A DNA stretch of 64,000 bases from Volvariella volvacea V23 (lineage: Eukaryota > Basidiomycota > Agaricomycetes > Agaricales > Pluteaceae). Both the position numbers and the translations under genes were made by a program. The stretch lies in the NCBI GenBank assembly GCA_000349905.1, contig KB722740.1, positions 1,150,575-1,214,574 on the forward strand, read 5' to 3'. Below, in pieces: positions 6,306 through 59,642 of this stretch. Each line of letters opens with the position of its first letter. Position 1 is the first letter of the stretch. The notes beneath the pieces are model-generated. The model saw nothing but the letters and a program-made list of their open reading frames with translations. It had not been told where the DNA came from and did no database searches.

Positions 6306-8544
6306 ATGGAGAACCTCCTAGATAATTTTGAGGATTTCCAGACTGGGGACAATCAAGGAATTGGTGATAATACAGCACAAGCACAATTTCCTTTTTATGA
6401 TCCTATGAATACAGGAAATGAGCCTGTGAGTCTGCCTGAGTCAACTCTGCTGTCTTGATCCTACTAATCATTGCATTATAGGGTATGATTTCCTAATATC
6501 TCTTGATTAGAGCTGATGGACCTGTGGATTAGTTGAAGGCTTAAATGCTGAGCAAGTTGATTCATATATGCCACAGAGCTCTTTCCACCCAAATAAGGCA
6601 TGTGTCAATGTATTACCACAACTCTTCACTCATAGATGTAATTATGGATCTCCAGGGCAAAAAATCATGGCAAAAGTTTCATACTCTGATTGAAACATAT
6701 GATAACAATATGTGCAAAGCATGGAATGATGAGATTCAAAATCTTCTTCTTTTTGTAAGTAATTGTCTAAGATCATTTTTAAATATTTAATACTTTGATA
6801 GACAGGCTTGTTTACTGCTGCAGTGACTGCATTTGTTGTTGAATCTTATCAATGGCTTCATACAGAGCCTGAAGATAACACTGTTAAACTTCTTTCTCAG
6901 GTGGTTTTGCTTATGGCCAACAATACTGATTTAACAGGCACTTTGGAAACAGCCTCAACAGAAACCCAAAAATCTCCTACTTATATGATTAGGATAAATG
7001 CATTTTGGTTTCTAAGTCTTACTATTAGTCTGTCCACAGTTTTACTTGGAGTTCTTTGCCTTCAGTGGCTTAGAGAGTTTCAAAGAGATGCTAGCATGAC
7101 TTCCCAGGATGCTATTGCTCTAAGGCAGCTCCGCCACAAGGGTTTAATAGCTTGGAGAGTTCCTGAGATAATCTCAAGCTTGTCTTTGCTGCTTCAAGTT
7201 GCAGTTATTTTGTTTTTTGCAGGAATTATTGATCTCGTGCTTCATCTTAATCCTGTAATTGCAGGTTGTACTATTTTTATTACTGGCAGCACATTTTTGC
7301 TATTAGCCATCACAGCATTAGCACCTACAATGCAACTAATTGTGTTGCGTATTGCTAAAAAGCCTATGGGGTCTCAGTGCCCTTACAAATCATCTCAAGC
7401 ATGGATTATATATTTAGGAATTTCTAAGCTGTATAAAAAATTGTCAAGCACATCATTAATCACAATTGAAAATGTTTCTTCTGCTTGGATTGATTTTGAT
7501 AATTATTGGCAAGAATTAGAATTTCTCAAAGTTGAAAGAACCTTTGGTCTACCACCTGAATTCCAAGACAACCCAAGCAGTAATAGAAATAACATATTAT
7601 CCCAGAATGGAGAATTAGCCCAACAAGGTGTATTAAGTACAAGAACACATCTTTGTTTGGGGCTTAATTGGGCTATTGCTACATTTGGTCATAGATTGGA
7701 TGTGTTTCGATCATTTTACAGCCTACTTTTGCAGTTTGATATTAAAGATTTAGCAGCATTAGCAGGACCTACTTACTACCTGAGGCTCAAACCAAATAAT
7801 ATCTCAGTTTGTAATCAGGATGATATTGCAACTCCTGATTCTGCTATTTTGCAAATTTTCAATCAAATGTCCATAGTCAAAAATAAGTCTATTGCATTTC
7901 ATCAGCATGACATAAAGATCCAAGTCTCAAATTTGTTTTTTAAATGTCTTAAAACTTATACTAAGCAATATGAGTTTGACTATGAGCTTCCCTTAGATCC
8001 TTTGTGTTGGCATTTGATGTATGAGAATTTTGATCAATGGTTTATAGACACAAGAAATAAGGATTATGATGTTATTATTACTATTCAGGAAAAATTAATT
8101 AACACTATGCTTCTCCCATCAACAAAACCTGAAGAAAGAGATCAACTAAATAACTGTATAAATACTATTGCCAACTATTATTGGCCACATATTACTGATT
8201 TCTGGATTTCAACCAATGAACTCAATCATGTTAACAATATTCAAAAGTGTACTAAAATGTTTGAAATACACTTAAAGCTGTTAAAAAATAAAGAGTATGT
8301 GACAGAAAATATCAGGGATACTGCCATTAGACTTGCAAAGAAGTATTTAATGGCTTTTGGAGCTTACTGGAATACACATGCAACAACTGGCCTGCAATCA
8401 GAATTGGAGCCTTTGGTAACTACACTATATGGCTATTATCAAAATGGGCATATACAATCGAAACTTGAGCTGTGGATCAATTTATATGCTATGATTGGCT
8501 CCACAAATATTACATTAAGTGAAAACCCAACAGGATTTAAATAA
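6306..8544 (+). CDS. DUF6535 domain-containing multi-pass membrane protein
   Basis: The main exon (6802-8544) encodes a long AT-rich frame that begins with the DUF6535 hallmark: TGLFTAAVTAF, followed by an ESYQWL segment. Next come three or four hydrophobic helices, around FWFLSLTISLSTVLLGVLCL, a helix ending in FAGIIDLVLHL, and a helix ending in LLLAITALAPT. The exon upstream ends at 6754 (intron 6755-6801, phase 0) and carries the expected lead-in, W..F...IETYDNNMCKAWNDEIQNLLLF. A likely first exon is 6306-6425, followed by a GTGAGT donor; the link between it and the exon ending at 6754 is not resolved because stops interrupt the simple joins. The C-terminal ~350 residues are soluble and unlike anything I recognise. 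Function is unknown for this Agaricomycete family. Third codon positions are strongly A/T and CpG is rare, unlike genes right of 14300. The domain call is firm; the 5' structure is not. Confidence 0.8.
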
Positions 8545-8761
8545 AAATTTGAGTTTAAGATTTTTATCTAATCTTAAGTTCTTTTATTTTTTTCCTAGCA
8601 TGATAATGTTTATAGCTCTACTTTTAGGATTAGCTTTGATTGAATTGATTTGCAAGCAAGTTGTTTAGATTGCTACTATTACTAAAACCCTCAATTGTAG
8701 TATTACTTATTGGAAATCAAGAATTTTGCTTTAAATATAAAAATTATGAAGCTTAAATAAG

Positions 8762-9309
8762 TGTTACAAGTACTTACCTCTGAACTGATCTTAGCAAGAA
8801 TAAAGTCAGATAGAGCAGTTGCTTGTGCACTAGTAATGCAGTAGAACAAAGAGAAAACAAAAGACAAATTAATTGATCTGAGAAGTGATACTCAGATGTA
8901 CAGGCTTTATATATCTACAAGGCTGTATGTAACTATTTGTATAATATAAATAACTGACAATAAATTTATCAGCTACCTGAGTCATGTGTTTATCTAAGTG
9001 ACCAATAGTGTAAGTTCTTCTATTCTACAGTATTCCATGATATTCTATGAGGCTGTGCATATGATGTCATATTACTCCAAGGTTCTAGAATGTTCCATAA
9101 CCTTCCAGAAAGTTCTAGAGAAGACTTGGTATGAGAAGATATTACTAATAATGATATATAATGAGATTAGGTGCCTTAAACAAGTGCTGAGGTATAAGCA
9201 CCCATAATAGCCACTCAAGGGTGTTAGCACCTGAGGGTTACTAGAAGAATACATAATAATTGAAGAAAAATAATGATATATATGCGACCAATGGTAGAAA
9301 ACTATGACA
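8762..9309 (+). repeat. LTR-like repeat R1, copy 1 (~548 bp)
   Basis: The unit starts TGTTACAAGTACTTACCTC and ends AAAACTATGACA, i.e. TG...CA ends with a short imperfect inverted match, as in LTR retrotransposons. It aligns along its length with the copy that begins at 9711: shared pieces include TTGTGCAC, TATATCTACAAG, AACTATTTGTATAAT and TTCTAGAGAAG. No coding region follows. No target-site duplication is obvious for this copy (ATAAG left, CAACA right), so it may be truncated or old. Read as a solo LTR. Confidence 0.6.
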
Positions 9310-10186
9310 CAACATGTACTCACCTCTTAGTAGCCTGTAAGTTCAGGTTGCACTGGAGTCTCTGGGGCAAAGCTAGCTCAGCAAAGTAGACAAGGTTGAA
9401 CCTGAAAAAAACTCCCAGAGCCAACCAAGCTCACTTATATATTCACCAAAGTCCATATGTACATGTTTACACTATTTCAGACTATTCTATGGGTATCTAT
9501 TTATAACCTCACAATAACATCACCAGTGTCTGGTATTGCTAAGATCCCATTAGGTAGAGATAAGCTGTAAGCTGAGATGATGGCTCCAAGACTAATGATG
9601 CTACCAAGAATACTTTGATGCCTGGGATTTCTGAAGGTGGCTCAAAAGGTAGTGTATCATGTAATCATGATGTAATCTAATCTAATCTGGATTAAGTAAG
9701 CAGTCATGTGTGTTACAAGTACTTACCTCTAAGATGATCTTTAGCAGGAGTAGAATCAAATAGGGCAGTTCCTTGTGCACAGATAATGCAGTGAAGTGAA
9801 GAAAGAACAAATTGATTGATCTGAGGAGCAATACTCAGAAGTACAGGTCTTATATATCTACAAGACTGTATATAACTATTTGTATAATGTAAATGACTGA
9901 CAACAGATCTATCAGATATCTGAAGCATGTGTTTAACCAATTGACCAATGGTGTAAGTCCCTCTATTCTACAATGTTCCATGACATTCCATGAGGCTGTA
10001 CATATGACTCAGTCATGATGTAATATGACTCCGAGGTTCTGGCATGTTCCATAATCTTCTGGAAAGTTCTAGAGAAGTCTTGGCATGTGAAGATATTACT
10101 AATAATGATTATATAATAAGAATAGACGCCTAGGATAAGCGCTGAGGCATAAGCACCCACAACAGCTGCTCAAGGGTATTAGTGCT

Positions 10187-11027
10187 GTAAGATGCGGAAT
10201 GTAAAGGGGTACAGTGAAGGCTATACACCCACACAACACAATACGCTCCCAGAGAGTTAATCGGACCTTAGAAGGGTCAGACACTTCCTGTTGTTCGTTT
10301 TAGGGTTTTTTTAGGGTAAGGTTAGACAGTGACCAAACCCGTTGGTAGTAGTGTGCGTCAGATAAGCTTGTAACTCTAGTGTAGCTCTTTAAGCAGCAGT
10401 GGTCTTTTTAGCTGGCATTCGCTCATTGTGCCCTCTCCGGCCAAAGTAGGAAAAGGGGTCTGGTAGGTCCACCCTGGAACCATGCGCACAGAGGAGTGAC
10501 AAGTGCCGCCCACCATTTCTCTTCTTACTAAGGGGCCATATCAAGTGTGTTGCATCGTTCGACATGTTTTGTTGAAAATGTAGTATAAAATTCTCTCATC
10601 TTCACCATATACACCAAACANNNNNNNNNNNNNNNNNNNNNNNNNNNNNNNNNNNNNNNNNNNNNNNNNNNNNNNNNNNNNNNNNNNNNNNNNNNNNNNN
10701 NNNNNNNNNNNNNNNNNNNNCACTATCAAATATCTTAGTAAGCTCTATATTTGACCTTCTTTTATTTTCTTTTTATCCTGAAAAATAGAAGAATATTCCT
10801 AGAACCTCTTCTAATGCTCCTTTTTCAAAGCTTTCTTTTATAGATAATACCTATCATTCTACTCTATATTGTTTCCAAGTTTCCAAGATTTTTGTTACTA
10901 TCAACACAATACAATTCTAATTTTAACACTTAGAAAAATATTTAGTCTAGTCTTAATTATTATTTCATGATGCATTTTTATACTAAGCAATTAAAGTTGA
11001 CCCTATAGATACATGTCATGCATGACA
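10187..11027 (+). repeat. Nested repeat R2, copy A (contains assembly gap)
   Basis: This unit lies inside LTR-like copy 2. It begins TGCTGTAAGATGCGGAATG and ends CATGACAGCA, so its outer six bases are inverted repeats (TGCTGT/ACAGCA). It shares nearly all its length with copy B at 11213-11964, including the block AACACAATACGCTCCCAGAG and the block AAGCAGCAGTGGTCTTTT. Just inside the right end is a perfect palindrome, TGTCATGCATGACA. It has no coding frame. A non-autonomous element or an LTR of another family would both fit. Confidence 0.6.
10621..10720. other. Assembly gap (100 N)
   Basis: Exactly 100 N. The gap lies inside R2 copy A. The intact copy B reads straight through the same point (CACCATATATACCAAATGCTATCAAACATC), so the alignment leaves essentially nothing missing at this position unless a further insertion is hidden there. 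Confidence 0.95.
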
Positions 11028-11212
11028 GCACCTGAGGGTTACTAGAAGAATGCGAGATAATTGAAGGAAAGTAGTAGTGTGAATGCTGTCACATGTAGAA
11101 GACCGTGACAATGTGGTCCTTGGTGCTTATAGAAAAGAAAAGAAAATAAAAATAAATATTAATATTAAATAGACATGAATAAATAGGGAATAAAAATACA
11201 ATTCCTGACATG

Positions 11213-11964
11213 CTAGCACTGTAAAGTGTGGAATGTAAAAGGTATAGTGAAGGCTATACACCCACACAACACAATATGCTCCCAGAGAGTTAATCAGACC
11301 TTAGAAGGATCAGACACTCCCTGTAATTTGTTTTAGAGTTTGTTTTAGGATTTTTAGGGTAAGGTTAGACAGTAACCAAACCTGTTGGTAGTAGTATGTG
11401 TGAGATAAGCTTGTAACTCTAGTGTAGCTCTTTAAGCAGCAGTGGTCTTTTAGCCAGCATTTGCTCATTGCACCCTCTTTGGCCAAAGTAGGAAAAGGGG
11501 TCTAATAGGTCCACCCTGGAACCAAGTGAGCAGAGGAGTGACAAGTGCCACCTACCATTTCTCTTCTTACTAAGGGGCCATATCAAGTGTGTTGCATTGT
11601 TTAACATGTTTTGTTGAAAATGTAGTATAAAATTCTCTTATCTTCACCATATATACCAAATGCTATCAAACATCTTAGTAAGCTCTATATCTAAACTTCT
11701 TTTATTTTTTTTATTCGAAAAAGTAGGAAAATATTCTTAGAACCTCTTTTAATGCTCCTTTCTCAAAGCTTTCTTTTATAGATAATACCTATCATTCTAA
11801 TCTATATTATTTCCCAGTTTCCAAACTTTTTGTTACTATCAACAAGATATAATTCTAATTTCAATACTTAGAAATTACTTAGTCTAGTCTTAATTATTAT
11901 TTCATGATGCATTTTTTATACTAAACAGTTAAAGTTGACTCTATATATACATGTCATACATGAC
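11213..11964 (+). repeat. Repeat R2, copy B (ungapped)
   Basis: Starts CACTGTAAAGTGTGGAATG and ends ACATGTCATACATGACAG; it matches copy A throughout with point differences and small indels. The palindrome at the right end is imperfect here (TGTCATACATGACA). It is followed by the same R1 right-hand fragment that follows copy A, but is not preceded by the R1 left-hand part. That suggests duplication of a composite R2 plus R1-fragment unit followed by loss on the left, rather than a second independent insertion. Confidence 0.6.
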
Positions 11965-12055
11965 AGCACCTGGGGATCACTAGAAGAATATGTGATAATA
12001 AAGGAGAATAATAGTATGTATGTGACCAATGGTAGAAAACCATAACAATGAGCAT
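11965..12055 (+). repeat. R1 right-end fragment
   Basis: CACCTGGGGATCACTAGAAG and the following GACCAATGGTAGAAAACCAT match the right end of LTR-like repeat R1 (9222-9309 and 11028-11110). No left part of R1 adjoins it. Confidence 0.6.
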
Positions 12056-12973
12056 GCACTAAACTATATATTGTGCAATTATTAATGGTATATATAGCAT
12101 GATACTGACTTAATAATATCTCTAACTGCTATATTACTGTTATTGGATTTTGTTGCTCAATATAAAGCTTATCATAATAATAAAATCTTTTTATACACAC
12201 TATAGCTAGTCAACACAAATAAAGATATAATAGCCTTTCTCTAGTAAGTGTTTTTTATTGGATTTTTTTTTTGCATATATATAGCTTGTTATAACTGAGC
12301 CTCTCTATTAGACTTCAGCTAACACTAGACTAGGCAATCCAAAGGATGCAAGAGATTGAAAAAGAGTGAGAACAAGCAAGCGAGAAGCTGAGTAAAGCAA
12401 ATCTCTATATTAGACTGCTAGCTATATAAGAGGTTAAGCTTGAGTTGAATCAAGCTGGAGGCTATAGCTTATATACTAATTACTGAGTAGAGGAGAGTAT
12501 GTGGCAGACAACTAAATGAAGTAAGTATTGGTGGAGGAACACGTAGGTACTACCGAAGATAGTAAAGAGATACATATGTATATGTATGTAGTACCTAAAA
12601 GAAAATTACTGTTCACGAGAGAAAAAAGAATCAAAGTCCATAGCTAAGTACATGATGTGAGAGATGAGACAAGAGAAGAAAAAAAAACGATAGGACCAGT
12701 TATGCAGTCTGTAACATAGCTAATTTTTCAATGTGCTAAGTATTTGTAACTTAACTTGATAAATACAGAATACTTAGTTATATTCAAAAGAGTATTATTT
12801 TATCTACTCTAAGTAATTATATCATTGTCTAAGCTTTTGTTTTTACCAAACTTAATAAATATCAATAGATTAAAATGCCTAAACCTTATGCACTTCAGAC
12901 ATAATTTGCTAAAATATTAGTAGTTATCTATAAGTACTTCAAATTTCAATGAGCTAACATGATATAAACTACT

Positions 12974-15900
12974 CTAGAGGTAGTACATAGATTCTTTCAT
13001 CCACCATCTTTGAGGCCCTCTATGAAACCATAAAACAACATCAGATCGTGGTCTCTCTGTTTTTGTATAGCCCTTGAGAAATGGATGCAAATAGCACAAA
13101 CCACGTTTGCAAGCCAATTTAGCATAATAGATAGGAGCTGGAACAGGAACCGCATGATTAACTTTTCCTGTAAAATAGCAAAGTGAATTGGTTAAGGTCT
13201 GAATATCATTAGACTTAAATCTAAAGTCATCATGAATAACACAATAATATGTGGGTCTTGCTGTTCCTTTTCGTGCTTCATGTGCTACATTATCCTGTGT
13301 CAATAAAGAATTATTGTAAAGCAGAACACTTACATTGCAAGAAAAAATCAAACTTATCACCAGATAAAACCCCTTGATCCACCACTGTACCAGGTGGAGG
13401 ATTTCCATGACCATATGCACTAGCAACATTTGCTGGAAAAAAGCGAGCATGGTGTTGCTGGCTCTACAATCTGGTCAATTATTATACTATAAGTATTCTG
13501 TAGTACTTACAGAGGCAATTAATGCAAACTTTGGCAAATACTTGCCACGAGGCAATTCTACAGTGATTTTGTCAAATGCAGAATATATCAATTTCATCTC
13601 TGCTGATATGATTTTGTCTCTTTCTTCCTAATGCAATGTTAAAAGTATATAAACAATAGTTTGAAATAAATTATACCTCTGGTATATCATGGCGAAATAT
13701 AATAAGACGTTCTGGCCAGACTCCATTCCGCTCTTTATATTCCATAATTCTGGTTGACAGCATATTTGGCAAATCTGTCATTACCTGCAAGTACAATCAG
13801 ATTAAAAAGTATAGCATATATCATACTCCACCTTTTGGGCTAGTGCTTGTAAAGCCAAAGATACAGCAAACTGGGAAAAGTGGTCATCAATGTTACTAGC
13901 ACAGGCCCCCACTGGTGGTATCCATGGAGTATTGAGGTGAGAGGAGGGATACCAAACATTTAGGCCCACAAGTAGGGTTGGTTTGCTTTGCAGGAAATCA
14001 AGTGTGGGACAAATTATAGTTTGGCTTGATGAAACATTATTAGGACAATACAGATGATATCACCAAATAAACTCACTTTCTTCCTCCTATTTTCATATTG
14101 ACTTTCATGGCAACTCCCAATACATATTTAACATCATCTGAGTTGAGAAGCTTTTTTGTTTGCATACAAGTATGAGCTAGACTTTTTAAGCAACAGAATA
14201 CTAAGAGCTTGACATAGCTTACCAGCACCAACATCCACCTCAAACTTGTGCTTGATTGCTGCATATACACCCCTGTCCTCATTGGCAAGCAAGAAGAACA
14301 AAAAGGAGGGTGCTGGCACCATGCTTGAGATCACATTGCCTATCACATTTATGACATCTTTGCGAAACGGATCACTTCTATGATCTTCAGGAAGTCTGGC
14401 AACACCTATTAGGGGAGCCTTTAAGACATCTATCCCCATGCGCCTGAACGCTGTGATCAATAGCCGGTCGATATGGGTTCGAATCTTTCTTCCAAGAGGA
14501 GCATTTTCTCCCAACTGATCAACAGGATTGTCATCTCCGTCGCTAATGATGATTACCGCCCATTTATCAAGCTTTACAGCACTTTGAAAAGTGGACGGAA
14601 CCGTTCGCGGGTCCCAACGAGTATCCGGCCCAACATCAAGAATGGCTCTGCCATAGCGGATTCGTGGTGGGGGAATAACCCTTCCTGGAACAGACATCAT
14701 GTCGTTAGTGACGCTGATGCCAAAAGAATGGAGTGTTGGCGACGCGTTATAGCTTAATAGATGCATCGCATCTGCTGTGATAAGCCTAGCCACTTGTGCG
14801 GGGGACTCTGTCGCATATTCGATGAGTTTCTTTATCTGCTGCGGTGTCAAAATTCCACGGAATGGTTGGTTGGGAAGGACGCTGCAATATTCCGCAGTTA
14901 CTCTTTTGTCTACAGAAAGAACCCTGGGATTTTCGAAGTAATCTGGATGTACTAATGTGACGTCCGAAGATTCTATGACGATGCATCAGGTATCGCGTGA
15001 CACATAGCCCTACATTCACTTACTGTCATCATACAAGTAATGAATTGTCCCTCGTCGTTCAGAGTTGTTCGTATTACGGACTGCAACACGGAGACCCTTT
15101 ACGAATAACTTATAACGAACTTCCTCCCACTCTCTAAAGCCCAAATCACGCATTTGCATGGGCGAATAAAACGCCATAGTAGAAACTTCAAACTATTAGT
15201 ACCTAGTGGAACGGCCCCATATGGGGAAAAAGACTCACCGTCAATATTGACGACCACCTGCCTGTGTGCAATTCCGGAACCAACATAAAAGCCTCTCCGA
15301 CCTTGCAATCCGTCTCCGATTTCTTCTGGTTTCTTTGGCTGATCGTTTGGGAAGAAGAAGCGACGGCTCGCAACGCAGGTGGCTTGCTTGTATCTCCGTG
15401 ATGGCGCAGTGAGGATGATGTCGAGAGCCTTGAGGATTGGGAAGACCTCGTCGTCCTGTATATTGATGTCGCCACCCAAATACCTGAATGGCGGGACCTT
15501 TAAAGCATGCTTCGAGTATGATCAGATTACTTACCTAAGCAGAGTCCCTACCGACAACACTCGCGACGGCGTCATGACCACCCTAAAGCCTGCCCTTTTC
15601 TCTTTGTTTCGACAGTCGTTCGTTTCATGGAATGGGACAGTTATCGTTAAGGATTCCCCTGGGAGTTCCTTCGATGAGACTAAGGTGGATGAGTAATCGT
15701 GTGCGATTTGATCCACTAGCCCCTTCCACGCTTCTGTCGCCTCCGCCAGCTCAAAAATCTTCTGTTTCATCCGTTGTGATATAAGTCGTTTATCGGTAGA
15801 TTCCTTCGCGAAGGTGATCGATACGTTGTACTCGTATAGTGACTTGTCCGAGACACGAAGGCGGAAGAAGTTGGTTCGGAGCTGGATTGGTCTGCCACCA

Positions 15901-16088
15901 GACCCAAAGTCTGGGCGAAGTATGCGATCTTTGGCTGAAGTTGACATGCTATGAAACCTAGCCAGTAAATCGTTAAGGGAACTGTCCCTAAGTTCTTCGT
16001 CGAGTTCGAAGGGCTTTTCTGCTTCAAAAATACTTGAACGAGAATTAACCGAGTGCGAGCGATTGATGAGATGTTGTATCTCACTCAT
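12974..16088 (-). CDS. Argonaute family protein, slicer-inactive
   Basis: Ten exons join in frame to 889 codons: 16088-15535, 15483-15239, 15185-15024, 14972-14223, 14176-14077, 14024-13832, 13784-13677, 13627-13511, 13463-13334, 13284-12974. Domains in order: ArgoN (RPDFGSGGRPIQLRTNFF, ~60), linker L1 (GDGLQGRRGFYVGSG; VNIDVSTMAFY at the exon 2/3 join), a short PAZ, L2/MID (RVIPPPRIRYG; YAAIK; a VAMKVNMKIGG block) and PIWI (HHARFFP, GTVVDQG, FFLQSHEARKGTARPTYY). The C-terminus ends MYYL as in Argonautes. The DEDH slicer residues align with N626, K668, H700 and K842, so cleavage is probably lost. MID residues that bind the guide 5' phosphate look mostly kept (Tyr, Lys, Lys; Gln replaced by Thr). 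It should still bind small RNA in RNA silencing. The 3' half is AT-rich, the 5' half is not. Confidence 0.9.
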
Positions 16089-16902
16089 TTATGTCAGGAT
16101 CAGGAGCAGGTTTGTATTCGTGATCACTGAAGAACATCAGAATCAATACTCGATCCAACATGTGAAAGACTCACAAATCCCTCCTCCAACCCAAAATCTG
16201 GATGGGCTCCTCCTCGAGCTGTGCTGGAACGCTAACCGGGCTCGTGCTACTACCAGCGGTGCCTCGTCTAATGTGCAGCCTCTAAACCCCAATGAGTAAG
16301 TCCAGAATCTGCATCCTACAACACGATTTGACGCACAGAGGAATCCCTATCTTCCGTTCCAGAGGTGATGGGGCGATTACGAGGCGGACTAGTAGACTTC
16401 CAAAACCTCGGAAACTTCGTTTGCTTCGCAGGTGGTGATGGCATGGGGAAGGTGAAATCGCTTGTTTGTCGTGTTGTAGGTATTGGCCGTGCGCGTCAGG
16501 AGCAGAAAGAGGCGGATGACTGTTACAAAGGCTGTGGCCACAGTTCAACGTCGTCTGATGTGCCAGAGCCCAGAATGGACACACGCTCCCATGTGGCATC
16601 GATTGCCAAACCCTGTTTCCTAAAAGGAAAGCGCTTAGCGTCAACAATACGCGCTACAACACAAGCCAAATTGCAAGACCTCTTAGTCAGCTCAGATACC
16701 CGTCTTCCTAGACCCCCACAAGCACTTTGTCGACGAAACCAGATACCTAAAGCGGTCTTTTTCACACTAATTTCATAGAAAAACGCGCATAAGAGTGTGT
16801 CTTTACAGCGATAGAGTGCATAGTATGAACGATCTTGATCTATCCTACATTTGCACTATACTCACTCAGCCCCAAATCTTATTCTTTCGCATAACGTGCA
16901 AA
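16089..16902. other. Intergenic, no supported gene
   Basis: This 0.8 kb lies upstream of the Argonaute start and downstream of the F-box gene ending at 16903. Overlapping open frames of 80-137 codons occur on both strands, none with a recognisable motif, so I read them as chance frames. The Argonaute promoter must lie in its left part. Confidence 0.6.
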
Positions 16903-18682
16903 TTAACATAATTGCAGGAGTTCGTGAACATCTCGCCATCCCCATCGGCTTGCGCGAAATTTCCAGGCACTTGAGTTCGTTGTAGCGGTGTCTCCAGAGT
17001 CAGCGGGCTTTGAGTTAAAGCCCGACAACTTTTCCAAGCGTGGAAAGGTATCATCCAGCTTTCGAGCAATCTCGAAAATGGCTGATGGACATTCCCCCAT
17101 AACGGTTAGCTCCCTAAGTCCATAGAACGGCACGTTTTTGTGGTAAGTGCGGGTAATGTCAGAGAAGTCGAGAGAGATGGTCAAGCTGGAAAGCTTGGGA
17201 CAACGTGGAAGGAAATGCCTCAACTCCGTAAGGGAGAAGCCTCGTTCTTGAGGTGGCAGATGTAGGGATTCGATATTGCGGAGTACGTCCATAAGGGGGG
17301 TATAATCCGCAACACCAGGGAGGAGCCAGGGGAAATTGATAAAGTGCAATTTTCGAAGCGCTATGCAGGCCAGGAATGGCTTGAAAAGAAGCTCGGCGAA
17401 TGTTGACTCAAGGACTCCTGCGGAACCACAAGTGCCGTTGAATGAAATCGAGATGGATTGGAGATGTACGCCCCAGCGCTCAGTGACATCTGCGATGAAG
17501 TCGATGAGCTCCCCACGGGGCGTTGCTCGTGTCTCTAATAACGCCGAAAAGCCGGACTCGTCGGGATAAATTTTGAACGACACCTCACGTAGACGATCGC
17601 TAGAAACATAGCCGATGAAAGCGTGGAGATCGTGTAAGGAACCACCAATTGACAGGTGTTCCAAATGCCCATATAACCTGCGTCCTTTTTCGCCTGGGCG
17701 TAGCTTCCAGTTTGACAGCCCCTTGAATACTGTCTGGGTAACGGAGACGGAGGAGCAGTGATCGACGGACAAGGAGGTAATCTCTACACCCTCTGTGCTG
17801 TTACCAGTCATTTTTAAGAAAGAATCATCCACGGTAACGTCCTTTCCACGGAAATTAATACGCTTCAACTCGAACGGAAGTGGAGGCACCGGATCATGAG
17901 AGAAAAATTTCGTATCTCTAGTGCAGTTAGAAATCTCGAGCTGCCGTAGGCGAGGGGACTTCAATGCGAGCATTGATAAAAAGCCACGCCCCATTTGCTC
18001 GTCAGCGCGGAGAATGGAATCGTTGATTTGAAGGGTGATCAGTGAGTGTGATAGGAGTAGAAAATAGAGATGCAGAGACGGCTGAGCAGGGTTTGGCAAG
18101 TGGAAAGGCTCGATTATAAGAGTTTGTAGGTTTGGGAGAAAATTTTGATGAGGACGGAGTGTCGATAGAGCTGTACATAGGTATATCTCTCCCTGAGTAT
18201 ACGACCCTACTGGTAGAGCGGATGTGAGTGTTAAACTGCGAACGCGGCATGAATATGAGTCGAATGCTATCCAATCCTTTTGGAGGTTATATCTGTAACA
18301 GGACTTCTGTAGGTCGTTTAGCGAGCTAGAGTCACGATTATCGATGGGATTCACTGACAATGCTCAATTCCCTTTTCGTCGAACCATGTTCATCTGTGAC
18401 GGTATGAATTGCAATAAATGGCAAAAGTTGAAGCAGAGGAACTATCGTATCCAAGTCTCTCCAGAGCGCATCTAGAGCAGGCTTCTGGAACCGTCGAGCG
18501 CTGAGTGAAAGAGACAGCAAGGAGCGACGCATGGTCCTAACTGTCAACCTCGTCCAGAGGCTTAAGGGCGCCGATAGCGGTTGCACAAATTGTGAGGTAA
18601 TTGAAGCAATGATATCTTGGGTTGAGAGAGCCCTTTCGTGAGCCGTATTAGGAGTGCTAAGGCCAACGGATGAGGTCGACAT
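16903..18682 (-). CDS. F-box/LRR protein (copy A)
   Basis: Two exons, 18682-18359 and 18306-16903, join in phase 0 across a short intron with a GTCAGT donor, giving 575 codons; a GTGAAT donor three bases on would shift the frame. Exon 1 carries a degenerate F-box (LSLSARRFQKPALDALWRDL, then TIVPLLQLLPF). Exon 2 carries leucine-rich repeats with phrases such as LRQLEISNC, LHFINFPWLLPG and ESLHLPPQERG. F-box proteins normally dock substrates on SKP1-cullin ubiquitin ligases. The family's structure is always one F-box exon, one intron, then one long LRR exon. It is divergently oriented from the pseudogene at 18951, with 268 bp between starts. The closest relatives here are at 48583-50396 and 50838-52701. 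Confidence 0.8.
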
Positions 18683-20811: not shown

Positions 20812-22537
20812 TCATTTACTGCCCATTGTCCGCCATCGAGCATCCTGACAGAGATGTACTAGCTTTTCAACCCCATCCCAAACTCCCGACAGGTCTCCAT
20901 CCTGGCACAAAACTGATTCACCACTAATACAAGACAACTGAGGAAACAAACAGTCCAAATTCCACGCGATAGCATGCGGATCTTGCTCCGAGTACTTCCC
21001 CCGCACGATCAGAGAGCAAAGGCGGTGTCGGAAGAAAGTTGGAGACGTCACTCGGCGACTACTTGGCCAGTCCCTGAAGTCGATGGAAACCGCCAACTCT
21101 TCCAGCTTGGGGCAGCCTAACACGAGCCCCTGGAGCTCGGAAAGGTTTTGTCCGATTTCTTGTTCAGGAAGATGAAGGACGCGGAGGTTGGGAAGTAGAT
21201 GGGCGATAAACGTAAAATCGAGGTGGCCGGGGAGTATATATGGGAAATTGATGAAGCAGAGAGATTGGAGAGACTTCATGCCAGCGAATGGGTCGAAGAA
21301 GGACTTCCATATGCCGGCGGCTTTAAGCGGTGAAGGAGGGGATAGGCTAGAGTCTAAATCTGTGAAACCTATCTCGAACGATTCGAGGGTTCCGTTCCAT
21401 CTACCTGATATGGTAGTCATTAGTTGCATCAGCTGTCCGTCCGGGGTAGTCACGGGTGGGTAAGGCTGTTTCTGTGCTCCTTTGACATTCCCCAACGTCG
21501 CTGCATTAAATAGCGTGGACTTGGCAGGGATTATAAGACATGTATTCTTGATCTGTGTACTGGAAATGTGTTTGATAATGGTGTGTGTAACGGACAGCTG
21601 TGAGCTGTTGATCTCCAAGCGCCTTAGACTGCGGAAAGGCTTGATGAATGAAGAGAGTGCGGTATCAACACCGAAAAATAAATTAGCAGACATTGAATGG
21701 ACAATAAGGGTCCTGAGACCGTGTAACCTGCTCAAGCTAGCAAGGTCGAGTGACCGAAGATCGTGGACTTGGACGTGAAATGAAGACTTTGAGAGCAATG
21801 AAGAGGTTTGTCCCGAGATGCCTTCTGCGTTCTCTTCTCCTGGATGTTTACCAAAATCGACCGAGATGTTTCTCATGTTCGGACACTTGACGGCCACCAC
21901 CTGAAGAAATGCGTTTCTGAGGTGGGTATTTATTGAGGTCGTGTGAAGCTCGATGGTTGACAATGTTGGCGAAAGACACAAAAGTGGTAATGAGAGGGTG
22001 TTTTCTGGGAGGTGTGAGATGGAGAGCATGCGCAAACGTGGAAGAAGGCCGTTCGGCTTCAACTGAGCCAAAACAGGCAGAATATGGGGGATGCTGCGTG
22101 TCCAGATGGTGTTTTTTTCCTCCAACAAGTGTAGTACGTGAACTCGGGGCGCGTAGTGATTAAATCTGGTCCACCAAGCTTCCTGTGGAACTGTCATATT
22201 GATGGAGACAACCTGATAATCATCATAAGCAACAATGATTCATGGCATTCACGTTGTAGTGACTTACAGCGCTGGTATATGGTTCCGAAACCTGTAATAT
22301 GGGAATAAGCGCTAGAAGTGGTAGGACAGAGTCGAGGCACCACCATAGCGAGTTGATAGAGGGCTCGTAGCATGCTTTGTGGGTCATCGCTAGGGAAAGG
22401 AGAGCTTTGTTCCGCGCCGCGTCTGGTTGGGCATCCTTGAGCTCAAAGCGCAAGTTTGAAACGATGGCCTCGATAATTGCGGAGTTTGAGAAGGCAGTCT
22501 GGGCAGCTTTTGACACAAGTTCTGAATGTAGAATCAA
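20812..22537 (-). CDS. F-box/LRR protein (copy C)
   Basis: Exon 1 (22537-22268) encodes a degenerate F-box: KALLSLAMTHKACYEPSINS, then LWWCLDSVLPLLALIPIL. A GTAAGT donor at 22267 and CAG acceptor at 22213 leave a phase-0 join to exon 2 (22212-20812), total 556 codons. Exon 2 opens with the family signature WWTRFNHYAPRVHVLHL (other copies have DWxxFxxYxxRV) and continues with LRR-like repeats, including LCFINFPYILPGHLDFTF and LRVLHLPEQEIG. It is more diverged from the other copies than they are from each other. Inferred role: ubiquitin-ligase substrate adaptor. It starts 287 bp from the divergent gene at 22825, so the two may share a promoter region. Confidence 0.8.
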
Positions 22538-23762: not shown

Positions 23763-25650
23763 GTGAGGTTGACAACATGGCGCAGTCATGATTCGTCATG
23801 CACATGCATCACGGGCTGGTCGCTTCATGCTTTGACTACATCACTCAACAACCATGGCGGTCGGTCCCTTTGCTTTCCCGAGTCATTTTCACTCACACCA
23901 CCCCTGCAGCAAGCCGATCCGGTTACCAGAGTTTTGTTATTGAATGACGTATTGCAACATATCCTACTTTATCTCTGTTGAATACTAATCACCCAACCAC
24001 ATATGCCGAATATGGAATTACCTTTTATATCGCAGATAGNNNNNNNNNNNNNNNNNNNNNNNNNNNNNNNNNNNNNNNNNNNNNNNNNNNNNNNNNNNNN
24101 NNNNNNNNNNNNNNNNNNNNNNNNNNNNNNNNNNNNNNNGATTTGACAATCTCAGCAAGAAAACTCTAGTCAATTATGCACTTGTCCGGCGCGATTCGTG
24201 TGATACGGTGCTGAATTTAGTATGGCGCGACTTGGAATCGCTCGTCCCCCTTCTGCGCCTGATTCCAGGGTTCCGAATTGTTGGTGCACAATATGTAGGT
24301 TGTGTACAATAGCGAAAATTAGTGTGCTGATCGATTGGGCGCTAGATCCTAACGGGAGACCCTCGTCAATGGGATTGGGCCAGATTTGAATTTTACGCGC
24401 AGAAAGTGAGAACCCTCAAACTCCTTGACCAGAGCCATTCGGTACCATTCATCTACAACTGTGTTGCTCTGGTTCGCCCAACATCGACTCCGCTATTACC
24501 TAACCTCATTTCGCTCGATTACAATGACATATCGTCCTGTCGCGAATCTCCTCTCTTAAGTCTCATTGGCCCTTCTCTTAAACGCCTAAAGATCACCGCC
24601 GGAGCGCACGCCAACCTCGCCTCCCTTTTAACTGTTCTTCCGGCATGCGCCCCCAATATTGGTAGCGTCTCCCTCTATGACGAACTATCCAAGTCTCAAG
24701 CCCATAATTTTCTCTCTTCCCTTCAATACTTCTCTAATCTTCACGAGCTATCCCTGACGAATCACGGAACTCGTATATCATTGAACTTTTTGAAGGAACT
24801 AGAGACAGAGAGGTTTACGAGCATCTCCTTGACCCTTTCTGAACGCCAGGTCGTGGTTGAGGGCGAAGACCTTCCTGGCCTGCGTTTCGAAAGGCTGAAA
24901 TCGCTACGTTTGGATGCATGTACTAGATTGCTCAGGAAGCTTACGGCGCGCTTTGATTGTGGGAAGCTAGAGAGCCTCACGCTTGGCATCAGGATCCCAG
25001 ATGGGCAAGGAGTCGCACATGACTGTGCAGAGTCCACTCTCCTCCATTCCGCCTATCAAAAGTGGTCGCATTCATTACTCTCCCTGAGCCTCGTTCTCCA
25101 TTTTAGCACCACGAGCAAATCTACATCTCTGCAACTCGTGACGAGGAGTCTGGTTCCACCACGGGATACCATGCCGCGCAACCTAAAGAGATTTCAGTTG
25201 GACGTAACGGAGACCCGAGGGACAGTAAAGGTTGTGAACGAGGGCCAACTGGAGAAATTCATAGGTAGTCTGCCCGAACTGGAGGAGCTTACCCTCCCCG
25301 TCTGCTACGCAGTACCCTTGTCCACCGTGCAAGCACTGATACCGCGCTGCCCGGCCCTATCCAAGCTTCAGCTCAAAATGGACTTGATGTCAATCTCGCC
25401 GACCTCCCCTCTTCCATCCTTAATGGTCAATCGACTGCACACTCTTTCGGTAGGGAAAGCATGGTTCCCTCAAGCAAGTAGCTCACAGAAGCAGCGGCTC
25501 CTTCTTTGGCACCTTTTCCACGTTTTCCCTAATTTATTACAAGTGCATTCTACTGGGAACTCTGGCTGGAGAGAAGTTCCGGAATGGTTTGCGTTATTTC
25601 GTGCCGCTACGCGCGTTAGTCTCGATCGTTCTGGAATCTCGTGTACTTAA
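23763..25650 (+). pseudogene. F-box/LRR gene (copy E), interrupted in the F-box exon
   Basis: The LRR exon (24346-25650) is open and complete, starting at the conserved DWARFEFYAQKV signature and ending SLDRSGISCT. The F-box exon is broken. Its first part (DPVTRVLLLNDVLQHILLYL) runs into foreign sequence from about 23967. After a 100-N gap the homologous frame resumes at KKTLVNYALVRR (~24160) and ends at 24294 before a phase-0 intron. Compared with copy F the coding parts abut without loss, so an insertion is likely; the ends (TGTTGAATAC.../...TCTCAGCA) are not a canonical intron. The start used in copy F is also lost here (ATGCCATC became ACACCACC), though an upstream in-frame ATG lies near 23778. 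Probably a pseudogene. Confidence 0.65.
24040..24139. other. Assembly gap (100 N)
   Basis: Exactly 100 N inside the insertion that splits the F-box exon of copy E. True size cannot be estimated from the paralogue, because the paralogue has no sequence here. Confidence 0.95.
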
Positions 25651-26449: not shown

Positions 26450-28036
26450 ATGCCATCTCAGCAGCAAGCAGATTCGGTGACCAGAGCTCTGTCACTGAAC
26501 GACGTATTGCAGCAAATTTTGTCCCACCTCGACAAGAAAACCCTGGTTTATTTTGCACTTGTCCGTCGCAGTTCGAGCGAGCCAGCGCTGGATCTAGTAT
26601 GGCGTGACCTGCCATCATTTCTTCCCCTTTTACGCCTTATCCCAGGGTTCCAGATGGTTAACAGTCAATATGTAGGCTGTTTATCTTATTAAGCGCCTGT
26701 GCGCTGATCGATTGGGTGCCAGGTCCTAACTGGAAACGCATCTGAATGGGGCTGGAGCAGATACGAATTCTACGCGCCGAGAGTAAGGATACTCAACCTT
26801 GCCACGGGGACACAGCAAGTCCCTGTGGCTCCAGGCATCTACAGCTGTGTCGCTCGAACCCGGCTAACATCGATTCCGCTGCTGCCCAACCTTACCACAC
26901 TAAATTCTGGCGACATATCCTCCTCTGACTACCCGGAATCCCTCCTTTTGAATGTTGCGGGACCCCATCTCACAGAACTGAATATTTCTGCTAACGCGCA
27001 ATCCGACCGCTTTCTCACTTCTCTGTTCACGACTCTTCCAATCTGTGCTCCCCAAATCGAGAGTATCTCCTTCTCCGACAACCAAAGGAGAACTCAGCCC
27101 CATGATATTTTTTCGTCTCTTCAATATTTCCATAATCTCCGTAGATTATCCCTGACGGCTAATGGGTCACCTATTTCCTTGAAGTTTTTAAAGGAGTTAG
27201 GACAGAGAGAGAGATTTACGAGTATCACGTTGACCCTGAGCACTGGGATCACAGTCGTGGAAGAAGACCTCTCTGATCTGCGCTTCATTGGGTTGAAATC
27301 GCTAAAATTGGACGCCGATGTTGTGTTGCTTCCAAGGCTTACTCAATATTTAGGCTCCCAGAACCTAGAAGATCTCACACTTTACATCAGAAATCCACCA
27401 GGACAAGGAATTACACATGGATGTACAGCATCCAATCTACTCCACTTCATCTATAGGAAATGGTCTCACTCGCTGCGCTCTCTATGCCTCTATCTTTGCT
27501 TCAGCCCCGGAGGGAATAGTCTTCCACTCGTGATTGGAAGTTTAATCCCACTACGAGAGAACATACCGCACAATCTGACAAGGTTCGAGTTACGACTACA
27601 TCTTGGTATATTCACGACTACGCCTCTCAGTGAAGACCAACTGGGGGAGTTTATATGCAGTCTACCCAAATTAGAGGTCCTCAATCTTCCTCCTGTGAAT
27701 AAAGTATCGTTTTCTATGCTGCAGAAGATCGCGTCACACTGTCCGAGTCTATTGGAGCTTCAGCTCGGAATCGACTTGACATTCATATCGTCCACGTCAC
27801 CTCTTCCGTCTTCCTTCAACAATCGATTGCATACCCTTTCAGTAGGATATTCGTGGTTCCCTGGTACAGACAACCCGGAGAGGCAACGACTTGTTCTTTG
27901 GCACCTTTACCATGTTTTCCCCAGCCTTTTGCAGGTACAACATTCGAATACGTCGAACTCGTGGAGGGATGTACCTAAATGGTTTGCTCTATTTCGTGCC
28001 ACCACATATGTTAACTTCAAACGCCCTCGAATCTAG
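26450..28036 (+). CDS. F-box/LRR protein (copy F)
   Basis: Exon 1 (26450-26671) encodes an intact F-box: ALSLNDVLQQILSHLDKK, then SSSEPALDLVWRDL. Exon 2 (26723-28036) follows in phase 0 and opens GNASEWGWSRYEFYAPRV; total 511 codons. LRR-like phrases include LTELNISAN, LEVLNLPPVN and LLELQLGIDL, and the C-terminus (SWRDVPKWFALFRAT) matches copies B and E. This is the only member of the B/E/F subfamily that reads through without a lesion. It probably acts as an SCF substrate adaptor, but no substrate can be inferred. It sits downstream of a dead copy of gene D, mirroring the D-E pair. Confidence 0.8.
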
Positions 28037-29514: not shown

Positions 29515-31106
29515 ATGATGATGAGCGGGAACGATCCCAAACCGTCCACATGTCAGCAACACAAGGACGTTACCCTTGTACTCGACGTCATAATATCTAT
29601 CATCGACTACTTATCCGTTGACCTTAGTGACAATGCTTGCGACGTCCAGGCGAGAAGACGGGACTTACTTCATTTCGCGCTTGCCAGTCGAAGCGTAAAG
29701 GAATCCTCGCTCAACGCATTGTGGAGGTCCTTGGACTCCTTTTATCCCTTATTTGCGCTGCTCCCCACATTCTGCCTCCAGGTGTAGGTTTTCATGCCTA
29801 TGTACGACAACACTTACCGATATTGTACCTGCAGGTTCTTCGAGGGATTCCGGACGGCGAGCATTGGTTAAGGTTCAACTACTATGCCCGGAAAATCGAA
29901 GAAATCCGTTACCGGCCAACGGAGACAGAAGATGCGAAGATCGCCCCATGCACCTATTTGGCCGTTTTTAACTCTATCCTCCCGCACCGCTATCTCCCAA
30001 ACCTGAAGGCGATTCATCTGCTGCAGCCTTCATTCATATTTCTCTCCCTCTTCTCAGCATCTCAAGAGCTGAGCTCACTCGACTTCTCCGGCATACTGCC
30101 CCCTGGTCACGCATTCATCTCTAACGCACTCTCTGTTATCCATCATAACTCAGACCACCTCACCACCCTCGCCTTGCCCGCCGCCATCTCGGAGGACATT
30201 ATCGGGCTCGCAACGGATCTTCGACATCTCCAGTCTCTTTCACTGGGAGAACGAAATACTATTTCTCTTCCCATGTTAAAGAAACTCGGAGAGCTGGGGA
30301 ACCTTGGGAGTTTGACTCTGTCCGTCACGGAGAGCTTTGGGAGCGGAAATAAGCGGGATTTTGCCAATCTTGGATTTATCGGCCTACAGAAGTTGACGCT
30401 TGCGGGTCCATTAGATGTGGCAGTATCTGTGCTCGGCGTCATGGATGCATCAGGGCTGCGAGATGTCGACATCGACTTCAATCGTCAGAGGAACCCCAAG
30501 CCAGAGATGCTCGCAGTGCTTCTGAAGAGTATAGGCAGGAAGTGGCCTTCACTGCGCAGGGTGACAATCGCCAGCGCCGCGGCATGGGCAAATGCTGGCG
30601 CGGCGAATCCGACCAAGTTTGCGGATATGCTGCAAGATTTCGCTGACCTGGAAAGCCTCGTAATCGACATTCCGAGTTCCCCTGGATTATCGCCGATGGC
30701 GCCGGATGAAGTCATTTCGTTTGTGGGCGGTCATCCAAAACTACGAAAGTTGGACCTGCCTCCATTCAATATCGTCTCGTTTTCGACTCTGATCCGTGTC
30801 GCAAGGGCGTGCCCCTTCTTGATTAGCCTCAGAATTCACCTCGGTACGGAGGATATGCCAACCCTACCGGAATGTGAGGCGTTGAGGACGAGACTGCGAT
30901 ATCTAGCTGTTGGTGCCTCCGATTTCAAGGGACTGTCGACTGCGATGGAATTAGCCAGAAGGTTGAATCGCTTATTCCCGCTGTTGGAAATCATCGAGAG
31001 TGATGGGGATGGACCAACAAAGCAGTGGCAGACAGTGCAGACCCTGTTACGGTTTGCCCATGCCACCCGTGATGACGAGTTTGATAGGCCGAAGGTCCGC
31101 GTATGA
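29515..31106 (+). CDS. F-box/LRR protein (copy G)
   Basis: Exon 1 (29515-29781) carries the F-box segment (DVIISIIDYLSVDL; DLLHFALASRSVKESSLNAL, WRSLDSFYPLFALL). A short intron with a phase-0 join leads to exon 2 (29835-31106), giving 512 codons. Exon 2 begins VLRGIPDGEHWLRFNYYARK, matching the family's DWxxFxxYxxxV start, and continues with repeats such as HLQSLSLGERN, LQKLTLAGPL and PKLRKLDLPPFN. It is in the same orientation as copy F but clearly more diverged from the B/E/F group. It is GC-richer with no lesion, so it is probably functional. Inferred role: ubiquitin-ligase adaptor with unknown target. Confidence 0.8.
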
Positions 31107-48582: not shown

Positions 48583-50396
48583 ATGGAGATTGGGCATATA
48601 CTACCTCTCGAAGGTAAGAAAGGATTTGCTATTATAAATAAAGGGCTTTCAGATACCATAATGATCAATCTATATAGGATCGGTCGAGGATTCAAGTTCA
48701 GGGGATTTGGGACGAGAGACAGCACTAAGTAGGGTGCTCTCAATCGATGACCTCGTCCTTTGCATTGCTTCGCAATTTGATTACCCAATCCTTTGCTGTA
48801 CAACAGAAGAGGACTATGACGAATTCATAGAAAATAAAAGGACTTTGCACTCTCTCGCTTTAACGTCAAAGGCATTCGCTTCCCCAGCACTCGATATTTT
48901 GTGGAGGAATATGGATTCATTGATCCCATTAGTCAAGCTCCTTTCGTTTGTCAAGGTTCAAGTTGACACTGGAGAAGTATCGGTGGTATGTTGGTCGACT
49001 TCGTTTGTGAGGAATTCATTGTCATGCAGAACCATTCTGTTTTATGCAGGGCACAGTAGCGCGTTATGACTTGGATAATGATTGGGCACGCTTCAATCTC
49101 TACTCACCCAGAGTTCATGCACTCCGGATTCACTCTCGATCGATGGGACGCTTTCTGATACTACGCGAGCTGTACTTTTACTCTACGTTGTCCACTCTTC
49201 GCTCGGGAACCTCATTTCTTCCGAACATACACACCCTCATTCTTGAGCATCTTCCAACACCTGAACAAGCAAATCAACTCACAGCCCTCTTAATGTCCTC
49301 ATCACTCATCACTCTGGTGCTTCACGACACCGTCCTTAAAGCCGTGACAGAACATGCGGGCAACCTGATGGCATTGGTATGCTTCAAGTGCCCTCATCTC
49401 CGACGCTTGGACTTCGTCGGCTGCTCTGGGAAATCATCCCTATTCACGGCTAACACCCCTCCTCCATCCGCTTTGGCGTCCATAAGCATCATGGGATCTG
49501 GGCTTTCGCTTAATTCTATGAACCTATGGGCTACGGGGCTCAAGTGCGAGCTAACAAAGCTCTCTTTGGGCTCGTGCTCGTTTATTTCCACCTGGTCGAC
49601 TTTCCATCCTCGGGACACCTACACCAATTGGAAAATGTTTCCCGGTAAGACCTGTAGGGATTTATACAAAGCCTTGGAAACGGTAGAAATTACCGCCCCA
49701 TTATCTCTTCTTCAGACCTTCTTTGGATATATATCGAGCAACAACCTTCAAAACGCAGTGATCAAGGTTGTTCTCACCCAGGCTAGCTCTTCCTCTTCAT
49801 CGGACCAAGGAGTATTGGCGCCACACAACCAGTGCATGGAATTTATCGCGGACATCACTGACCGCTGGAGCCACACACTCGAGTCTCTGCAAATTTCTTT
49901 TGACGGTGCTTCTGGAAGCACATCGCTTTTTAAGCAGATGCCAGCACAAGTCTTTTTCGAGCCCTTTCTCAAATGCAGTAATCTCCGGGCGCTTCGTTTC
50001 TTCAACTTTCCTAAGAGTCTAAGTGGAGCTCTAGACTATACCCTTCTCCATCACATCCTTTCGCTACCGAGGCTGGAGTCCTTACACTTACCTCCCCACG
50101 AGCAGGGTCTTCCTATCTTTAAATTAAGAAATCTCCTCGACTTCCACCCCGATGTCAGGGATCTAGGAATTTCACTGGACTTCCAAGACGCCATGCCCAG
50201 CAGCACTCTCAACCATAAACTCACAAAACTCAAAGTCTTTGGGAGCTGCCCTTCTAACATCGTGAGAACAGCTCGTCAGCTGGACGACATATTTCCTCGT
50301 CTAGTCCAATTGACAGGGGTGACGGATAAGCCGAGATGGGAAGAAGTACAGGAATTGCTGCATCTATGTCAGCATGCGCGTTGTAGAACAGGATAG
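48583..50396 (+). CDS. F-box/LRR protein (copy N)
   Basis: Three exons: 48583-48613, 48678-48985, 49050-50396 (561 codons). The tiny first exon (MEIGHILPLEG) is needed because exon 2 has no ATG in place; copies P and Q show the same three-exon plan. Exon 2 holds the F-box (SIDDLVLCIASQFDYPILCC; SPALDILWRNMDSLIPLVKL). Exon 3 opens YDLDNDWARFNLYSPRVHAL and carries LRR-like repeats (LRALRFFNFPKSLSGALDYT; LESLHLPPHEQGL), ending near WEEVQELLHLCQHARCRTG. It is closest to copies A and P. All joins are in phase and no lesion is seen, so I read it as functional, presumably a SKP1-binding substrate receptor. Confidence 0.82.
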
Positions 50397-57600: not shown

Positions 57601-57797
57601 TAAGGCCCAGCGGATGGGGGCAGCAAGGAACCAGAAGAGGGCGAGCGAGCGTGGCCGGGCGGATGGAGAGGGGTCGAGTTGACGCGGGTCCGTTGATTGG
57701 GTATGGGATCCGCGCTGGTGTTCGGTGGCGGAGTGACGACCACGAGGCTCTCGTCCCCGTCCTTGCTCGACTTGCGCCGGTGCAGAGTGCTGGCCAT
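54619..57797 (-). CDS. Cation diffusion facilitator, Zrg17/Cis4-like zinc transporter
   Basis: Exon 1 (57797-56146) starts MASTLHRRKSSKDGDES; an in-frame ATG 27 codons upstream is possible. It has a ~450-residue Ser/Pro/Thr/His-rich cytosolic region, then membrane helices (RVISVLQFLLGAALWVSG; GYWIVFDAFGVGI). Exon 2 (56064-55879) has NARVETVLMFAQTVYLMFAS and YVCKETVEHLLL, then a GGGGGGHHHHHDDE loop. Exon 3 continues with IEFPLFLVFLASVTTL and the FFDNHNKLV helix end; exon 4 with NPYVVSPLAFCGCILW; exon 5 with TDLILSTLLSLLTFHLSY and a C-terminal cytosolic domain (VVTLELHVKPNLSDDDVLAL). The layout fits Zrg17/Cis4 proteins, which pair with a second CDF to load zinc into the ER and secretory pathway. 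Oddities are a Tyr/Asn/Ser-rich loop in exon 4 and an Asn-Gly-His-Ala repeat in exon 5. Confidence 0.85.

Positions 57798-59642
<1,845 letters not shown>

Follow-up and report, generated by a model that had tools for sequence, protein, structure and literature searches.

Five Argonautes have been published for Volvariella volvacea, and a catalytic tetrad has been described for VvAgo1 and its subfamily, that of VvAgo1 being reported as DEDD (PMC7522536, in the portion of that paper used here). Across 34 species, including 25 fungi, the DDH triad has been described as well conserved in fungi at its first two positions, deviations being far commoner in animals, chiefly in C. elegans (PMC4290597, again in the portion used here). 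Here we analyzed a 64,000-nucleotide stretch of V. volvacea V23 (GenBank assembly GCA_000349905.1, contig KB722740.1, forward-strand positions 1,150,575 to 1,214,574), hereafter the window, whose minus strand carries from 16088 to 12974 a predicted Argonaute gene in which all four tetrad positions are occupied by other residues. On the sequence data presented below, we consider it evenly poised between right and wrong that this gene (the window gene) is a member of a small, disarmed Argonaute family and acts as a non-cleaving regulator of RNA silencing.

Loss of the slicer tetrad

The residues found at the four catalytic positions are the following:

13958..13960, minus strand: Asn626 (codon AAT), replacing the first catalytic Asp; gene model and alignment
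13832..13834, minus strand: Lys668 (codon AAG), replacing the glutamate finger and directly followed by a phase-0 intron that the paralogues share; gene model and intron comparison
13689..13691, minus strand: His700 (codon CAT), replacing the second catalytic Asp; gene model and alignment
13118..13120, minus strand: Lys840 (Lys842 in an 889-residue form of the protein), codon AAA, replacing Asp/His; gene model and alignment

These positions were placed by alignment with human AGO2 and with 22 further proteins returned by the first search, and by the phase-0 intron following Lys668, which falls in the identical alignment column in the paralogues L009, L011, L012 and L013, the preceding codon being Glu in all four; the residues before this intron are LAQK in the window protein versus RPNE and SKKE in L009 and L012. 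The loss of four slicer residues claimed by the original prediction was thus upheld, while the DEDH tetrad that it had taken as the reference was not, as 19 of the 22 relatives (a count that excludes P0001, the protein of a second strain described below) carry DEDD, only one, a plant protein, carries DEDH and two have gaps; DEDD is therefore the probable starting point of the window gene. Since all four residues are replaced, we infer from established Argonaute biochemistry that slicing has been lost and that the window protein is unable to cut RNA.

It is very improbable that an artefact of the assembly or of the gene model is masking a normal tetrad. The exon borders are predicted, and both the start and one acceptor are uncertain, but three of the tetrad codons lie within exons and Lys668 sits at a border common to the paralogues. 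Only two stop-free joins were found at this border, the alternative one using a GC donor and dropping three residues including Lys668, and Glu came back in neither. Moreover, a database protein of V. volvacea WC 439, P0001 (AX16_004281), which covers 86% of the query at 99% identity, has Asn, Lys and His at the corresponding sites; as annotated, it stops short of the fourth site, with approximately 100 of the last residues absent. Where the two model structures agree, P0001 and the window protein differ at residues 57, 157 and 526 only. No WC 439 protein corresponding to L011 turned up among candidates picked by shared words and length, so that its absence from this strain is not implied.

Word-based searches gathered 117 database proteins, a set of sequences sharing words with the queries and not a fungal census, of which 51 have a DEDD tetrad, 61 have DEDH and five have something else, namely P0001 (NKH and a gap), P0025 (KECD), P0049 (DDDH), and P0019 and P0021 (both with gaps). 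P0025, from Irpex rosettiformis, is another dead agaricomycete Argonaute, whose tetrad reads KECD instead of DEDD and whose PAZ scores above the Pfam cut-off. No closer dead relatives were obtained with a profile of the window protein and L011, which gave the same 23 proteins as before, or with a C-terminal query of L011, which gave 95 proteins with a top identity of 41%, to P0001 itself. Likewise, no paper on catalytically dead Argonautes of mushrooms was found in the literature searched by title and abstract.

MID pocket and PAZ region

The pocket of the MID domain that holds the 5' phosphate of the guide lies as follows:

14091..14265, minus strand: MID 5'-phosphate pocket, Tyr557, Lys561, Thr573, Lys595 and Lys599, with an intron in between; gene model and alignment

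Four of the five pocket residues are kept (Y-K-T-K-K in the window protein versus Y-K-Q-K-K), the Tyr and the three Lys being retained alike in L011 and L013; the Tyr and the change of Gln to Thr are as first described, while the Lys number three and not two. The PAZ domain grips the 3' end of the guide. In the window protein its region measures 90 residues between conserved flanks, versus 112-114 in 17 of the 22 relatives, the stretch with the YF...YP...VG motif is absent, and no match to PF02170 (PAZ) was obtained at 1e-3; for P0001 and L011 none was listed even up to an E value of 10 (most matches above 0.1 being removed by filters), and the controls L012 (1.5e-19), P0002 (2.1e-19) and P0025 (6.5e-14) all matched. 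By these measures of length, motif and profile the PAZ domain of the window protein is degenerate.

Among 51 near-invariant sites, 15 are lost in the window gene. At the positions that we take to be the equivalents of human AGO2 Arg710, Arg792 and Ser798 the window protein has Gln, Lys and Pro, and it keeps the residues at those corresponding to His712, Arg714, His753, Arg761 and Tyr804. The conserved Lys column corresponding to K709 is a gap in the 887-residue model. In a post hoc calculation, which had not been planned, the probability that the three tetrad columns included in the 51 all fall among the 15 lost was about 0.02, and that of the four MID residues all being kept was about 0.24, so that the sparing of the pocket is not significant in the window gene alone. 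The earlier suggestion that guide binding may survive can apply to the 5' end alone, since the PAZ is degenerate and the protein is altered at several near-invariant positions close to guide contacts.

These same features bear on whether the protein is an Argonaute-fold scaffold that makes protein contacts only and binds no nucleic acid, which we regard as decidedly unlikely. The degenerate PAZ and the changes at several guide-contact positions would agree with it, but the Tyr/Lys/Lys/Lys set of the MID pocket is kept, and so are the five presumed equivalents from His712 to Tyr804. Such a scaffold has been proposed for Med13, argued to keep Argonaute features yet to be unlikely to bind nucleic acid via that interface (PMC12477606, in the portion used here).

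Argonaute loci in the genome and origin of the dead clade

Eight Argonaute loci were found in the genome, versus the published five. Five of the eight are DEDD (L009, L010, L012, L014 and L015, of which the last two have rough or partial models) and three are dead, their aligned tetrad residues reading NKHK in the window gene, SEYD in L011 and TEHE in L013. L011 (1941-4984; G000:C5:1382940-1385983), located on the same contig about 216 kb from the window gene, has an open 887-codon frame with seven GT-AG introns, is slicer-dead and has no detectable PAZ. L013 (2179-4600; G000:C17), for which we used the MID-PIWI part from the profile gene finder and read the N-terminal part by eye, is interrupted in the N domain by an in-frame stop, and no PAZ separates its L1 from the last part of L2; this locus is probably a decaying copy. 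The window protein is 37% identical to L011 and 32% identical to L012.

In a 46-row tree with the tetrad columns masked, the window protein, P0001, L011 and L013 form one clade (support 100/99) that branches among basidiomycete Argonautes, its exact place being unsure given the long branches, and the tree program warns of long branches meeting. Quick trees starred the window protein with L011 when L013 was left out, and with L013 when L011 was left out, although these stars are less trustworthy. Six MID-PIWI intron positions agree exactly in column and phase among the window gene, L011, L013 and L012, four of which were not found in L009 or L010. The free tree sets the dead trio apart from L012; forcing them together gave a p value of 0.547 in the approximately unbiased test (p-AU) and a log-likelihood 0.94 above that of the free tree. 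Because of the six shared introns and the slightly higher likelihood of this tree, the simplest reading is that the trio descends from an L012-like DEDD gene.

Changes at near-invariant sites are alike in the window gene, L011 and L013: Thr827 is replaced by Asn in all three, Asp700 by His, Tyr and His, and Gly701 by Asp, Asn and Asn, respectively. This suggests that catalysis had already been lost in the common ancestor of the trio, in which case two of its frames would have long stayed open without slicing.

An older loss, shared with other Agaricomycetes, would mean that the family is not confined to Volvariella and that the trio descends together with dead Argonautes such as P0025; it concerns origin only and would be compatible with a non-cleaving regulator, but we judge it improbable. 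A clade of P0025 and the trio is not rejected (p-AU 0.398), but in the best tree P0025 stands beside P0016, near P0002 and P0024, with weak support (86/50); moreover, it retains its PAZ, and a tree uniting the trio with L012 is no less likely and agrees with the introns that they have in common. An independent loss of slicing in P0025, which we had expected, was not retained as a conclusion, given the same test of the common clade.

Maintenance or decay

The main rival to a disarmed regulator is relaxed decay, in which an L012-like duplicate was freed from constraint on slicing and on the PAZ and its copies drift, the open frame being transient or left over. We consider this possible, though on the doubtful side. 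When selection-free drift was simulated from L012 to 40% mutual identity, a mean of 16.8 stops per copy accumulated, with at least 18 stops in total in each of 200 runs, versus none in the real window gene and L011; the simulation has no insertions or deletions and covers all of the divergence, also any part of it that preceded the loss of slicing. Two 887-codon frames with GT-AG introns at 37% identity speak against decay, as does the retention of the pocket Tyr and three Lys in the window gene, L011 and L013. Decay is favored, on the other hand, by the N-domain stop and the missing PAZ region of L013, the very long branches of the tree, the A+T-rich repeat block adjoining the gene, the 15 near-invariant sites lost, and the WC 439 model that lacks a C-terminus, although the latter apparently reflects a different splice choice.

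The ratio of nonsynonymous to synonymous substitution rates (dN/dS) was discarded as a test of selection, because dS is saturated and no relative close enough was found. Values of dS ranged from 2.8 to infinite for three whole-length pairs with the window gene; the proportion of nonsynonymous differences between the window gene and L011 was lower than that of synonymous ones (pN 0.44, pS 0.74, with dS saturated), and the C-terminal part of this pair gave the only finite moderate value (dN 0.50, dS 1.42). Selection for a non-cleaving role, as advanced in the original prediction, is a candidate explanation that agrees with two diverged dead paralogues having kept their frames open, although dS is saturated and L013 carries a stop.

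Several observations weigh against a maintained regulator that still binds guides. The MID pocket has lost its Gln to Thr, at a position where basidiomycete DEDD relatives also have no Gln but Val, Ile or Phe, and the seed channel may also be impaired, given the Gln, Lys and Pro at the presumed Arg710, Arg792 and Ser798 equivalents. The in-frame stop of L013 indicates that members of this clade do decay. Furthermore, the G+C content at third codon positions is 0.23-0.36 from residue 601 of the window protein onwards, making the 3' third of the gene A+T-rich, as in L011; the gene adjoins a repeat island, and two of the four tetrad substitutions are compatible with single G-to-A changes. From this A+T richness, the nearby repeats and the G-to-A-compatible substitutions, mutation bias may have contributed. 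RIP-like mutation is a further candidate, raised by the A+T richness of the 3' half.

Gene model and domain organization

The window gene comprises ten exons with nine predicted GT-AG introns of 46-53 nt; the joined exons measure 2664 nt and encode 887 amino acids, the sole stop being the terminal one. A 47-nt form of intron 8, picked by the profile gene finder and also present in the WC 439 protein, yields 889 amino acids and makes the fourth catalytic site Lys842 instead of Lys840. The uninterrupted, ten-exon Argonaute of 889 codons initially proposed was thus recovered, at 887 codons or, with the other acceptor of intron 8, at 889. The true protein may start upstream of the 16088 model, since the annotated P0001 opens with exons that correspond to 16444..16085 and leaves out codons 1 to 19 of that model. 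In Pfam, the protein matched Piwi (8.9e-54, 183.2 bits, cut-off 28.9), ArgoN (74.1 bits), ArgoL1 (39.4 bits) and ArgoL2 (50.3 bits), all above the cut-off, and in a search of PDB sequences it aligned to human AGO1 and AGO2, among others. The parts of the gene are:

16085..16444, minus strand: alternative 5' part in three exon segments (16444-16340, 16278-16177 and 16122-16087), from the annotated WC 439 protein
15535..16088, minus strand: exon 1, N domain, predicted model; first 19 codons perhaps intronic if the start lies upstream
15239..15483, minus strand: exon 2, end of N domain and L1; model and Pfam
15024..15185, minus strand: exon 3, end of L1 and PAZ remnant; model, alignment and PAZ scan
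14223..14972, minus strand: exon 4, end of PAZ remnant, L2 and most of MID; model and Pfam
14077..14176, minus strand: exon 5, MID with 5'-phosphate pocket; model and alignment
13832..14024, minus strand: exon 6, PIWI, first and second tetrad positions; model and alignment
13677..13784, minus strand: exon 7, PIWI, third tetrad position; model
13511..13627, minus strand: exon 8, PIWI; model
13334..13457, minus strand: exon 9, PIWI, upper end at 13463 in the 889-residue form; model and profile gene finder
12974..13284, minus strand: exon 10, end of PIWI, fourth tetrad position and C-terminus ...MYYL; model

Neighbourhood of the gene

The 3' end of the window gene adjoins a block of repeats:

8760..12716, no strand: A+T-rich block of repeat segments; composition and genome copies

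Segments of this block have, among the best candidates, many copies of 76-99% identity on many contigs, and they are apparently nested interspersed elements. At the edge of the block, 6802-8544 holds an open frame of 580 residues with a DUF6535 match (2e-41). Elsewhere in the window, seven long open frames look by eye like genes of leucine-rich-repeat (LRR)/F-box type that are related to one another (16903-18363, 20812-22239, 24346-25650, 26708-28036, 29631-31106, 49011-50396 and 51268-52701); Pfam, run on three of them, gave one sub-threshold LRR_14 match and no match for the other two. The segment 55001-59000 is G+C-rich (0.57-0.64) and shows a swing in GC skew, part of it being covered by a 725-residue frame (55875-58052) that is apparently rich in Ser and Pro.

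Proposed role

If the window gene does encode a disarmed regulator, its product would not cut RNA, its MID-PIWI lobe would remain able to hold a small RNA by its 5' phosphate, and the 3' end of this guide would be held weakly or not at all. One option is that it would sequester small RNAs from the five DEDD Argonautes, as a sponge; the other is that it would sit on seed-matched targets and recruit other factors, as an adaptor, and sequence cannot discriminate between the two. Because one edible mushroom carries five DEDD copies together with an open Argonaute frame in which every slicer residue is replaced, the role of an Argonaute that cannot cut and hardly grips its guide becomes directly testable.

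Comparison with known systems

The canonical basidiomycete DEDD Argonautes, namely the VvAgo1 subfamily (PMC7522536, in the portion used here) and L012, L009 and L010, have the same N-L1-L2-MID-PIWI order and the same MID Tyr/Lys/Lys/Lys as the window protein, L012 also having intron positions in common with the window gene; they differ in having DEDD and a PAZ (the latter tested for L012), whereas the window protein has NKHK and no detectable PAZ. In P0025 of I. rosettiformis (KECD), as in the window protein, both catalytic Asp of the DED core are replaced; unlike it, P0025 retains the Glu, the last Asp and the PAZ, and orthology between the two is unproved.

Drosophila Piwi (DVDK) has naturally lost slicing and has Lys at the fourth position, as in the window protein, and the residues that support the glutamate finger in human AGO2, His600 and Ser610, are replaced in Piwi and are Tyr629 and Pro641 in the window protein; however, Piwi still has the two Asp, and its PAZ grips the guide at the 3' end, whereas in the window protein all four residues are lost and the PAZ is degenerate (PMC7015924, in the portion used here). 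The nematode WAGO Argonautes, with an incomplete tetrad, resemble the window protein in being a lineage-specific, non-cleaving expansion beside active Argonautes (PMC10101689, in the portion used here). They belong to a different clade, and the link to secondary small RNAs is not known for the window protein. WAGO proteins reportedly keep their PAZ.

The long-B and short Argonautes of prokaryotes are encoded in operons with partner effectors. Slicing has been lost in both, and the short forms consist of MID and PIWI only (PMC12477606, in the portion used here). A bolder and rather unlikely extension of our proposal is that Volvariella maintains a class of Argonautes without slicer or PAZ, in which the 5' anchor is kept; this class would be a eukaryotic parallel to the PAZ-less inactive Argonautes of prokaryotes, with guides of unusual length or turnover, and would act as an antagonist or adaptor of silencing, perhaps tied to the adjoining transposons.
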